A stretch of DNA of 64,000 bases. It comes from Rickettsiales bacterium (lineage in GTDB: Bacteria; Bacteroidota; Bacteroidia; Cytophagales; Cyclobacteriaceae). The first letter of the stretch is position 1. Each line of letters opens with the position of its first letter. Position numbers and translations under genes: made by a program. The notes under the pieces were generated by a model that was not told where the DNA came from, ran no database searches, and saw nothing but the letters and a program-made list of their open reading frames with translations. Below, piece by piece: positions 30,934 through 39,545 of the stretch. Where the stretch lies: NCBI GenBank assembly GCA_002729235.1, contig PBTY01000055.1, forward strand, positions 79,983 through 143,982, in the 5' to 3' direction.

Positions 30934-31108
30934 AATTGTTCTTTATCAAATTCTAAGGTAAAAAGATATTAGGACACTTTTTTCTCTCAAATCGAAGTGT
31001 TTTTGTTTGATTTTTATTGATCCCGATTGAACAAAATAAATCTGGTTACTGAATTGCTCTCGTAGGTTAGGCGAATCACAAAAAATGATGTTTCAACAAA
31101 AACCTATG

Positions 31109-35640: not shown

Positions 35641-36321
35641 ATGAGTTTGGAATATAATACCGAGCGTACACAATTGACCTTGAGGGAGTATGGAAGAAAT
35701 GTGCAGAACCTTGTGGCGCATATTAAAACGGTAGACGATAAAGAAAAGCGCAATAAGCTCGCGGCGACTTTGGTGGAGTTGATGAAGATGATTAACCCTG
35801 AGTTTAGCAAAGATGCGCAGGAGTACACACAGAAAGTGTGGGATGACTTGTTCATCATTTCTAAGTTTGATTTGGATGTGGAAAGCCCTTTCCCAATTCC
35901 TGAGGCAACTATTTTGGATAGAAAGCCAGATAGAATGACTTACCAGTCAAACGAAATAAGGTATAGACACTATGGTAGAAACATTGAGATCCTAATCAAT
36001 GACGCTATAGCGATGGAGGATCCAGCAGAAAAGGAAGGAGCAATTATTGCTATTGGTAAGTTGATGAAATCATTCTATCAGACGTGGAACAAAGACAATA
36101 TTGAGGACGAGCAGGTGTTGAAGAATATCAAGCAATTGTCTAAAGATCAATTGACTATTGATATTGAAAAAGTAAAGACTTACGGGTTGTTCGATTCTGA
36201 AAAGAGATACAGCGACAACAACAATAACAACAGACACCACAATAGAAACCGTAACAATAATAACAAAGGCGGTAAAAGAAATCACTCCAACAACAACAAA
36301 AGAAGAAGAAACAACAACTAA
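35641..36321 (+). CDS. DUF4290 domain protein with Asn/Arg/His-rich C-terminal tail
   Basis: LEYNTERTQLTLREYGRNVQNLVAHI; adjacency to murA; start at MSLEY. Confidence 0.85.
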   Translation: MSLEYNTERTQLTLREYGRNVQNLVAHIKTVDDKEKRNKLAATLVELMKMINPEFSKDAQEYTQKVWDDLFIISKFDLDVESPFPIPEATILDRKPDRMTYQSNEIRYRHYGRNIEILINDAIAMEDPAEKEGAIIAIGKLMKSFYQTWNKDNIEDEQVLKNIKQLSKDQLTIDIEKVKTYGLFDSEKRYSDNNNNNRHHNRNRNNNNKGGKRNHSNNNKRRRNNN

Positions 36322-37628
36322 TGGCTTCATTCCGTGTGCGAGGTGGCAAACGCCTCAAAGGGAGCATCACTCCGCAAGGAGCAAAAAACGAAGCGCTCCA
36401 GATTATCTCTGCTGTATTATTGACAGCTGAACCTGTTCACATTCATAAGATTCCAGCAATTAGAGATGTTCTCAAACTCATAGATCTACTCGCAGATCTT
36501 GGAGTTCAGATTGAGAAAACTGATGAAGAATCATACCGATTTACGGCTAAGGAGGTTAATCTTAAATTTTTAGACACACAGGATTTCAAAGACAAAGCTT
36601 CTTCCTTAAGGGGATCTATCATGATTCTTGGTCCATTATTAGCTCGATATGGAAAAGGTAAAATGCCTAAACCAGGAGGTGATAAAATTGGTCGAAGAAG
36701 ATTGGATACCCACTTTGTTGGATTCCAAAAGCTTGGTGCAGAGTTTCATTATGACTCTACCACTAGTTTCTACACTGTAGATGGTTCCAAGTTAAAGGGT
36801 ACATATATGCACCTGGATGAAGCTTCTGTAACAGGAACGGCTAACATTATTATGGCCGCTGTTCTGGCAGAAGGTGAAACGACTATTTACAATGCCGCTT
36901 GTGAGCCATACATACAACAGCTATGTAGCATGTTGGTGCGTATGGGTGCTAAAATCGAAGGAATTGGAAGTAATCTTCTGAAGATTCAAGGAGTAGAAAC
37001 GCTTGGAGGCACTGAGCATACCATGCTTCCTGATATGATTGAAATTGGTAGCTTCATTGGTATGGCTGCCATGACACAATCCGAGATTACCATCAAAGAT
37101 GCTCGAATCGATATGTTGGGAATCATTCCTGATACTTTCAAGCGATTAGGGGTGAAGATGGAATTCAGAGGAGACGATATCTATATTCCAGCACAGGAGC
37201 ATTATGAGATAGAAAGCTACATTGATGGCTCTATCTTGACAATTGCTGATGCTATCTGGCCAGGGTTTACTCCGGATTTATTAAGTATTGTATTAGTTAC
37301 GGCTACCCAGGCAAAAGGGACTTGTCTGATTCACCAAAAGATGTTTGAAAGCCGCTTATTCTTTGTGGATAAGTTGATCGATATGGGAGCACAAATAATT
37401 TTATGTGATCCACATAGAGCGACAGTAATTGGCTTGGATCGAGCATTCCCATTAAGAGGTATCAGTATGACCTCACCAGATATTAGAGCGGGTGTCTCAT
37501 TGTTGATTGCTGCTTTGTCTGCAGAAGGGGATTCCACCATTCACAACATTGAGCAAATAGATCGTGGTTATCAGTTCATTGATAAGCGATTGAAGCAGCT
37601 CGGAGCAGACATAGAAAGGTTTGATTAA
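36321..37628 (+). CDS. murA: UDP-N-acetylglucosamine 1-carboxyvinyltransferase
   Basis: GGKRLKGSITPQGAKNEALQIISA, SLRGSIMILGPLLARYGK, PDIRAGVSLLIAALSAEG. Confidence 0.96.
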   Translation: MASFRVRGGKRLKGSITPQGAKNEALQIISAVLLTAEPVHIHKIPAIRDVLKLIDLLADLGVQIEKTDEESYRFTAKEVNLKFLDTQDFKDKASSLRGSIMILGPLLARYGKGKMPKPGGDKIGRRRLDTHFVGFQKLGAEFHYDSTTSFYTVDGSKLKGTYMHLDEASVTGTANIIMAAVLAEGETTIYNAACEPYIQQLCSMLVRMGAKIEGIGSNLLKIQGVETLGGTEHTMLPDMIEIGSFIGMAAMTQSEITIKDARIDMLGIIPDTFKRLGVKMEFRGDDIYIPAQEHYEIESYIDGSILTIADAIWPGFTPDLLSIVLVTATQAKGTCLIHQKMFESRLFFVDKLIDMGAQIILCDPHRATVIGLDRAFPLRGISMTSPDIRAGVSLLIAALSAEGDSTIHNIEQIDRGYQFIDKRLKQLGADIERFD

Positions 37629-37728
37629 AAAAAACGCCATGATTATCTCATGGCGCTCATCAACCAGCTTTAAGCAGTTTCTTATAGAAACTAAAGTACT
37701 TACGAACTGATAGATGTCGTTGGATTTC
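37627..37728 (-). ncRNA. Tandem structured element, copy 1 (candidate sRNA with intrinsic terminator)
   Basis: Minus strand: AGTTTCT-ATA-AGAAACT hairpin, GCTTAAAGCTGGTTGATGAG linker, CGCCATGA-GATAA-TCATGGCG hairpin + U8. Confidence 0.6.
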
Positions 37729-37812
37729 TAGATTCGGAAAAAAAACAATCATTTTTTAGAGGAAGGGATTCACTAATATTTAGGTTGATTGAGATTGAGT
37801 AGGAGTGGTAGT

Positions 37813-37885
37813 AAAAAAAGACGCCGTGATTACTCACGGCGCTCATCAACCAGCTTTAAGCAGTTTCTAAATAGAAACTACAATA
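37813..37885 (-). ncRNA. Tandem structured element, copy 2 (candidate sRNA)
   Basis: Same architecture; terminator stem CGCCGTGA/TCACGGCG shows a compensatory pair change relative to copies 1 and 3; T7 tract after TC. Confidence 0.6.
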
Positions 37886-38025
37886 TTCTTGCAAGGTAAG
37901 TAATGATTACTTTATTGGCCTAATCAACAAACGTCGTTTTCCCAGACTTCATCGAAAACCTGGTTATAATGGTCTTTTGGACGCTCAATTCGACTTGTTA
38001 TAATTATGTTAATTTTCTTTGGAGC

Positions 38026-38127
38026 AAAAAAAAACGCCATGATTACTCATGGCGCTCATCAACCAGCTTTAAGCAGTTTCTAATAGAAACTAAAGTACTT
38101 ACGAAATGAGGTTGTATGTTGGATTTC
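38026..38127 (-). ncRNA. Tandem structured element, copy 3 (candidate sRNA)
   Basis: Same architecture; CGCCATGA-GTAA-TCATGGCG + U9; 5' flank CGTAAGTACTTTAGTTTCTAT shared with copy 1. Confidence 0.6.
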
Positions 38128-38157
38128 GGTTTTATAAAAAAATCTCAAATTATTGAA

Positions 38158-38192
38158 AAAAAATAAAGCAAGACTATCGAGCCTTGCTTTTA
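38158..38192 (-). terminator. Intrinsic terminator of ECF sigma/anti-sigma operon
   Basis: Minus strand AAAGCAAG-N10-CTTGCTTT then ATTTTTTTTT. Confidence 0.8.
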
Positions 38193-38221: not shown

Positions 38222-39004
38222 TTATATCGCTTCTCCATAAACCTGCATGGTACTTAAGGTTGGACTGTCCGCACCACCAGTTTGCTCCACAGTCACCGCA
38301 AAAGCATCCGCTTTAGCAATATTCTTCATGATTTGGAAGGTGCCCTCTTCAGCGTCAAATACCCCAGCATCCACAGGTACTCCATCTATCAGTGCCCATA
38401 ATTGATACTGCTGGTTCTGTGGAAGAGATGCCATATTTGCAGAGTTTAGATATACTTCTTCGTCATTTGGATTCCAGTAAATGACGGCTTTTGCATTGGC
38501 CGCATTATCTGTTCCATTAAGAATGATTCTGCTAAACTCTGGACTGACTAATACAGCTAAATCTTGCTGAATTTCAGATAATTCCTGGTTTACAGTATTG
38601 TAGCTTTCTGCCAGTTCGATATTTCTGGCTGTTAGTTGAGCGAGTCTATAATCTGTATCTTGCCATTCATTCCAGAAATAATACGCACTCATCATGGACG
38701 CTAATGCGATGATAACACTTGCGGCAAGAGCTAATTTCATACCGCTGGATGCTGACTCACTAGATTCTCCAAAGAATTTGACCACCTTGGAGTCCTCCAT
38801 GATGTATCGTTTTACAACTTCTGCAGGAGAAATGGAATACTGAAATGCCAATTGTTCAACAGTTTTTTGCAAGTTGTAGTACTCGTCTCTAATCTCTTCA
38901 TCATCAGCGATGAATTGCTCTACCTCAGCAGCATCCGATTTGCTCAGCTCTTCAGTGATGTATGCTGCTAAATATCCTTCGTTTAAAATTTCTTCTCTAC
39001 TCAA
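38222..39004 (-). CDS. Anti-sigma factor (anti-sigma-K factor RskA family)
   Basis: One TM helix; C-terminal NPNDEEVYLNSANMASLPQNQQYQLWALIDGVPVDAGVF typical of RskA. Confidence 0.88.
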   Translation of the reverse strand: MSREEILNEGYLAAYITEELSKSDAAEVEQFIADDEEIRDEYYNLQKTVEQLAFQYSISPAEVVKRYIMEDSKVVKFFGESSESASSGMKLALAASVIIALASMMSAYYFWNEWQDTDYRLAQLTARNIELAESYNTVNQELSEIQQDLAVLVSPEFSRIILNGTDNAANAKAVIYWNPNDEEVYLNSANMASLPQNQQYQLWALIDGVPVDAGVFDAEEGTFQIMKNIAKADAFAVTVEQTGGADSPTLSTMQVYGEAI

Positions 39005-39545
39005 AATCTCTTCTCAGTTTGTGTTTAATTTCTTTCAAACAATTCCTAAGACGCGTTTTCACGGTACCTAAGGGCATTTCCTCGTTCTCCGAAATCTCGG
39101 CATGGGAGTATCCTTCAAAGAAATTGAGCTGAATGAGTTTTTTACACATCTTGCCGATTTCATTAAGCACGGTTGATAGCCCTATGTAGTCTTCCTCGTT
39201 GTTTGAGGTTTCAAACATATCTACGAACCCCGTGATGTCGTCGGATTTGTCAGAAGATTTAAAATCTTTTGACCGTCGTGCATCAATAGCCCGATTTCTG
39301 GCTATACGATACATCCAGGTAAATAAAGTTCCCTTCTTTGAGTCATAAGTGTCGATTTGATCCCAAATCTTGATAAAGACTTCATGAAGGGTTTCTTCAG
39401 CAATTTCTTTGTGATTTAGTGTGCGATAGATAATTCCATAAAGAGCATCTGAGTAGTGGTCATACAAGTAATCCAGAGCAGTGGTATCCTTGTTTCTAAG
39501 ACGTTTGACCAATAATGTATTAAAGTCTACAGTTGTTGTTGCCAA
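38997..39545 (-). CDS. ECF RNA polymerase sigma factor (SigK-like)
   Basis: LYDHYSDALYGIIYRTLNHKEIAEETLHEVFIKIW; GYSHAEISENEEMPLGTVKTRLRNCL; overlaps anti-sigma gene. Confidence 0.92.
   Translation of the reverse strand: MATTTVDFNTLLVKRLRNKDTTALDYLYDHYSDALYGIIYRTLNHKEIAEETLHEVFIKIWDQIDTYDSKKGTLFTWMYRIARNRAIDARRSKDFKSSDKSDDITGFVDMFETSNNEEDYIGLSTVLNEIGKMCKKLIQLNFFEGYSHAEISENEEMPLGTVKTRLRNCLKEIKHKLRRDFE

Follow-up and report, generated by a model that had tools for sequence, protein, structure and literature searches.

The enterobacterial small RNAs RybB and MicA are σE-dependent and Hfq-dependent, and their targets are the mRNAs of outer-membrane proteins. Near-identical sRNA copies, some of them in tandem and with a common conserved unpaired region, are found in other phyla as OmrA/B, LhrC and a Neisseria pair (PMC11697453). 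Within the Bacteroidota, Bacteroides thetaiotaomicron has the FopS family, paralogous RNAs of about 65–70 nt that are bound by RbpB (PMC11697453), and mapping in Flavobacterium psychrophilum has revealed an ECF motif that contains a CGT box (PMC9723704). In the case of F. psychrophilum SM6 (CGT −10 box), an ECF-type promoter drives, among others, a putative sRNA, Rfp11 (PMC9723704). A literature search found no paper on Marinoscillum sRNAs and no ECF-driven sRNA in Cytophagales.

Here we analyze a window (the whole stretch of DNA under study, 64,000 nucleotides) from a marine Marinoscillum (Bacteroidota) in which three near-identical minus-strand elements adjoin murA (37627–38133). FopS is the nearest described kind, and by analogy the elements may work alike without necessarily being members of that family. 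Both belong to Bacteroidota and are paralogous sets, with predicted or described RNAs of about 65–70 nt in which a conserved unpaired stretch is followed by an intrinsic terminator, and a further likeness is that FopS RNAs are mostly intergenic with one 3′UTR-derived member (PMC11697453). FopS RNAs have a single-stranded 5′ end with the R1 seed and σABfr promoters, whereas the elements here have a predicted 5′ hairpin and two of the three copies carry ECF-type boxes (PMC11697453). FopS has been deposited in Rfam (PMC11697453), and we assume its presence in the release searched, in which our elements have no match.

The likeness to RybB and MicA lies in small terminator-ended RNAs, an envelope-stress ECF sigma factor and an adjacent anti-sigma factor; those RNAs are Hfq-dependent and unrelated in sequence, whereas the elements here occur in Hfq-less genomes. 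OmrA/B, LhrC and the Neisseria pair are likened to the elements by description, with no sequence relation expected, and the Rfp sRNAs of F. psychrophilum are likewise a different family compared by description (PMC9723704).

Three sibling elements between murA and an anti-sigma factor gene

The gap between the murA stop (37628, plus strand) and the anti-sigma stop (38222, minus strand) measures 593 bp, close to the 0.6 kb given by an earlier sequence-only reading of this DNA, and contains all three elements. The features of the locus are as follows.

36321–37628, plus strand: murA, the convergent neighbor
37627–37692, minus strand: sRNA copy 1 (type 1); covariance model match 37629–37692, 87.5 bits; hairpin 37692–37676, linker 37675–37656, terminator stem 37655–37635, T tract 37634–37627
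37814–37879, minus strand: sRNA copy 2 (type 2); covariance model match 37816–37879, 89.4 bits; hairpin 37879–37862, linker 37861–37842, terminator stem 37841–37822, then T tract
38026–38091, minus strand: sRNA copy 3 (type 1); covariance model match 38029–38091, 90.8 bits; hairpin 38091–38075, linker 38074–38055, terminator stem, T tract to 38026
38222–39004, minus strand: anti-sigma factor gene (RskA_C, from a domain search)
38997–39545, minus strand: ECF sigma factor gene (Pfam Sigma70_r2/r4), whose product is proposed to activate copies 1 and 3

Each element consists of a 5′ hairpin (AGUUUCU-loop-AGAAACU), the linker GCUUAAAGCUGGUUGAUGAG (in DNA form GCTTAAAGCTGGTTGATGAG), a terminator stem CGCCRUGA/UCAYGGCG and a T tract. 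This architecture is exactly that described by the sequence-only reading, which had proposed three minus-strand copies with hairpin, linker and terminator. Its further statement that loops vary while stems and linker stay constant is also borne out: on the minus strand the loops between AGTTTCT and AGAAACT are ATA, ATTT and ATT, and the 20-nt linker is invariant among the three copies. Allowing up to three mismatches, the linker is found in the window as three exact matches against 0.01 expected by chance. Copies 1 and 3 share the terminator stem CGCCATGA/TCATGGCG, whereas that of copy 2 is CGCCGTGA/TCACGGCG, so that both sides have changed together as had been reported, and a T tract follows each stem.

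Minus-strand folding of the three copies is more stable than that of shuffled sequences (z −5.0, −3.8 and −4.2). Of five terminator-like sites in the region, three are those of these elements (0.8 expected), whose terminators are oriented on the minus strand only. The T tract of copy 1 overlaps the murA stop codon. The anti-sigma gene has its own terminator at 38190–38165, upstream of copy 3.

The elements in the window had no match in Rfam 15 at gathering scores, and nothing credible was found in Rfam for 19 related loci, in line with the earlier statement that no named RNA family was recognizable. The exact linker was absent from the viral contigs searched. Three other identities were considered and rejected. 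A small ORF is not kept, since the ATG of GGTTGATGAG is replaced by GATAAG, GATTAG or GGTATA in homologues. The murA-family elements are not attenuator or riboswitch leaders because the minus strand downstream of copy 1 holds no gene. Mimicry of a tRNA D-arm by the linker (GCUU...GAGC) fails in G089, G007 and G134, where the pairing is broken.

Conservation and covariation in related genomes

The element is present in all six Marinoscillum genomes and in two genomes of the sister genus g32, with one to three copies each at the murA locus. G000 and G162 have three copies (G162 has one orphan in addition), G182 has two, and G089, G007 and G134 have one each; the g32 genomes have a single copy, again at the murA 3′ end. 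An element adjoins the murA 3′ end in all eight genomes. Among named genomes, exact-pattern matches gave three copies in M. pacificum MRN461 and two in Marinoscillum sp. MSM7, and records of Cyclobacteriaceae bacterium SS2 and UBA7330 hold the same elements as the g32 genomes. In order-wide covariance searches, matches beyond Marinoscillum, g32 and the genus g61 were mostly bare terminators.

In an alignment of 13 distinct sequences, standard pairs fill 97.4% of pair cells (91.7% when shuffled, 35–48% when slid) and 10 cells are double-changed, compared to 2.1 when shuffled; this alignment was fitted to a model of the same structure, so these counts lean towards it, and they represent few independent lineages. 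A MAFFT alignment gave the same picture, with 94.4% of pairs kept and 8 double-changed cells versus 1.7. Variants among homologues include CGCCGCGA/UCGCGGCG and CGUCGUGA/UCACGACG in the terminator stem, and GUUCC/GGAAC and UUUCA/UGAAA in the 5′ hairpin. The linker core AGCUGGUUG is unchanged in 14 of 14 copies, and the murA-family linker is nearly invariant over 17 nt across Marinoscillum. Some terminators are imperfect, as T tracts are weak in the G134 copy and in the M. pacificum orphan copy. Homologues keep both stems through compensatory changes, and the covariation of both stems together with the constant core indicates that the stem structure is under selection.

These data bear on two simpler explanations. 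The first is that the elements are mere terminators, serving murA or acting against antisense transcription into murA, with no function in trans. The copy 1 terminator borders directly on the murA stop codon and an element lies beside murA in all eight genomes, both of which fit this explanation. However, murA is not terminated by the element, because the T tract lies on the minus strand only, and the invariant 17–20 nt linker, the covarying 5′ hairpin, the promoter boxes described below and the presence of three copies would all be superfluous, making this explanation very improbable. The second is a mobile or REP-type repeat that folds by chance, for which the one extra copy elsewhere in M. 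pacificum (L034) might be cited. We give it next to no credence: the 6.55 Mb genome holds exactly three copies at one syntenic locus, so the element is not scattered through the genome, an outcome that the sequence-only reading had named as refuting its proposal. Copy number and synteny largely refute a repeat, and the conserved upstream promoters and the compensatory changes also speak against it.

It should also be noted that the orphan sRNA copy of M. pacificum (L034, about 1100–1900, G162:C31) sits amid many degenerate GTGATCGGTGAGTCGGT-like repeats. Separately, in g32 (L116 and L117) a possible 30-aa membrane protein (MADSERQRLIKILNIILVVVAIFSLGLIFM) takes the place of the anti-sigma gene immediately upstream of the sRNA.

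ECF-type promoter boxes and the neighboring sigma factor

The sequence-only reading had assigned to the elements a 5′ flank common to copies 1 and 3 (GAAATCCAAC ... CGTAAGTACTTTAG). The flank is indeed shared, but it does not appear to be part of the RNA; most likely it is a promoter (−35 AAATCC, −10 CGTA) lying outside it, and this promoter, predicted by sequence comparison, would place the RNA start at the 5′ hairpin. CGTA is a classic −10 element of ECF sigma factors. The sites discussed in this section are as follows.

37701–37727, minus strand: predicted ECF-type promoter of copy 1 (AAATCCA 37727–37721, N16, CGTA 37704–37701)
38100–38126, minus strand: predicted ECF-type promoter of copy 3 (AAATCCA 38126–38120, N16, CGTA 38103–38100)
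37880–37958, minus strand: different upstream region of copy 2, from the alignment of three type-2 upstream regions
31038–31064, plus strand: AAATCT-N17-CGTA, resembling an ECF-type promoter, ahead of a gene for a DUF7282 repeat lipoprotein
39222–39248, minus strand: possible internal ECF-type promoter AAATCC-N17-CGTAGATATG within the sigma coding sequence and ahead of the anti-sigma gene

The motif AAATCCA-N16-CGTA precedes every one of the nine type-1 copies. Identity is 100% over the 11 box positions and averages 32% in the spacers, so the boxes are not leftover similarity. Across six genomes the motif occurs 49 times, compared to 13 for a reversed control, and nine of the 49 occurrences are the sRNAs. 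Several of the others, in intergenic DNA, precede orthologous genes, encoding SiaC (G000 and G162), an MFS protein (G007 and G134) or DUF7282 lipoproteins (G089 and G007); the exact motif in the latter two genomes is ahead of genes related to the DUF7282 lipoprotein gene of the window. The motif is also found ahead of BrkB, AhpC/TSA and sulfate permease genes (stress and envelope genes). The −35 and −10 boxes, at fixed spacing, are thus common to the sRNAs and the other motif-bearing genes.

Most likely, the promoter of copies 1 and 3 is recognized by the sigma factor encoded next door. In G104, from a sister genus, the motif directly follows the orthologous anti-sigma gene, ahead of a CHRD lipoprotein gene, which links the motif indirectly to this sigma factor. 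The sigma orthologue is present in six of six Marinoscillum genomes; it does not always adjoin the sRNA, being encoded at another locus in G134 and G104. ECF-type boxes were absent from the sRNAs of the sister genus, and the region upstream of the sigma gene itself lacks the motif. Inside the sigma coding sequence, AAATCY-N17-CGTAGATATG is kept in seven of seven orthologues and overlaps coding constraint. This internal site might drive the anti-sigma gene, and coding constraint could explain its conservation.

Copy 2 has a different upstream sequence (TTTTCGATGAA ... ACGTT ... AATCATT ... TACCTTGC), which recurs ahead of two M. pacificum (G162) copies, its type-2 copy and its orphan. This is probably a regulated promoter of another class, and because the upstream regions differ, the siblings probably answer to different signals.

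A wider set of RNAs with the same pre-terminator core

The core is not confined to the murA locus. Of 55 distinct non-coding occurrences of WAGCTGGTTG among the loci examined, 34 lead into a terminator, compared to 2 of 67 coding occurrences and a background of 1.9% at random non-coding positions; 13 of the 55 belong to the murA family, and a few loci, such as L122, L126 and L339, are biased, having been recruited by covariance searches. The recurrences, some intergenic and some in 3′UTRs, are in otherwise different structured RNAs, and the linker outside the core differs between them (GCUUA- versus UCUUGUCU-). Two families, F1 and F2, are present in six of six Marinoscillum genomes, with an invariant linker, UCUUGUCUAUAGCUGGUUGG, between 5′ hairpin and terminator; both also occur in g61.

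Family F1 (L239, L269, L288, L277, L284, L245): 3′UTR of a conserved gene
Family F2 (L262, L266, L255, L278, L243, L293): intergenic, between a nitroreductase-like gene (label read off the translation) and a secreted-protein gene

Their terminator stems covary, with 22 double-changed cells versus 5.3, a contrast that lies partly between the two families. Neither family matched Rfam. F2 lies about 50 nt upstream of the secreted-protein gene and may be a leader of that gene. Taken together, the murA-side RNAs are apparently part of a larger group of small RNAs, so far undescribed, that have a short pre-terminator sequence in common.

Two ways of overstating this relationship were rejected. The core is not a property of every terminator, as none of 77 terminators in 800 kb of M. 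pacificum carries it. Matches of model R3 to murA copies (about 12–28 bits) were not accepted as proof of kinship, as bare terminators elsewhere score about 24–28 bits.

Upstream of F2 (L262, L266, L255, L278, L243 and L362) there are two conserved TTTGGCAG boxes spaced by about 20 nt, some 60–80 nt upstream of the RNA and kept in g61, a possible regulator or promoter site. G134 has more core-bearing terminator elements, in L240 and, as a tandem pair about 340 bases apart, in L294 (TTCGTCCTTAATATAGCTGGTTGGGAACGGGAC).

Hfq, target searches and the role of the core

Hfq was detected in none of the eight genomes, while positive controls were detected. Exact complements of the core (11-mer and 9-mer-plus-ATG patterns) were mostly coding and not orthologous; they yielded candidate targets, and no conserved 5′UTR target was found among them. 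Linker duplex energies across 603 start regions (800 kb) gave a top value slightly better than those of 20 shuffles; the tenth value was no better.

That these searches found no conserved complementary mRNA sites fits an alternative in which the core would be a protein-binding site rather than a seed, with the RNAs titrating or loading an RNA-binding protein, e.g. an RRM protein of the RbpB kind. U-rich tails serve Hfq, and the pre-terminator core could be likened to such tails. Its constant position before the terminator in different RNAs (the murA family, F1, F2, others and 3′UTRs), where the remainder of the linker differs, is consistent with such a site, and since otherwise unrelated RNAs carry the core, a shared protein partner is conceivable. 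In Bacteroides, multicopy sRNAs are bound by RbpB (PMC11697453). However, the near-invariance of the murA-family linker over 17 nt is longer than a short protein site needs, and overall we regard this explanation as unlikely, though deserving of some weight. Equally tentative is a broader proposal, that Cytophagales have a class of Hfq-independent sRNAs and 3′UTRs in which the core is the docking site of an RNA chaperone and of which the murA-side RNAs would be one branch, under varied promoters that include those of ECF stress sigma factors.

Discussion

Our favored reading remains that of sibling sRNAs on the minus strand, each ended by a terminator of its own, as the sequence-only reading had proposed; compensatory changes, a kept linker and promoter-like boxes at constant spacing all argue for it. 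The ECF-type promoter and the wider set of core-bearing RNAs lay beyond the reach of that reading, and its suggestion of the linker as a candidate pairing seed may hold. Probably, these are Hfq-independent sibling sRNAs, with copies 1 and 3 under ECF control, that act in trans through the linker, most likely by pairing with mRNAs. Sequences, covariation, conservation, promoter-like boxes at fixed spacing and terminators are directly visible in these genomes; from them we infer that the elements are transcribed, which sigma factor recognizes the promoter, and that the RNAs act by pairing.

In the proposed mechanism, each element would be a small-RNA gene in its own right, about 65 nt long. A 5′ stem-loop at or near +1 would protect the 5′ end, the single-stranded linker would be the active part, and the intrinsic terminator would end the RNA. 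Copies 1 and 3 would be transcribed from the ECF-sigma promoter AAATCC-N17-CGTA by a sigma factor restrained by the adjacent RskA-type anti-sigma factor, while copy 2, with its different upstream region, would respond to another signal. Once the ECF regulon is switched on, the RNAs would accumulate and act in trans, much like σE-dependent sRNAs or the FopS family; most likely the linker would pair with mRNAs, with no need of Hfq.

The locus offers a compact, testable case for sRNA regulation without Hfq in the Bacteroidota, comprising three siblings, two of them apparently under a specific ECF sigma factor, and several unlinked RNAs with the same pre-terminator core. It bears on two questions, whether Bacteroidota possess an ECF-driven arm of sRNA regulation comparable to the σE sRNAs of enterobacteria, and whether the core is recognized by one shared RNA-binding partner.
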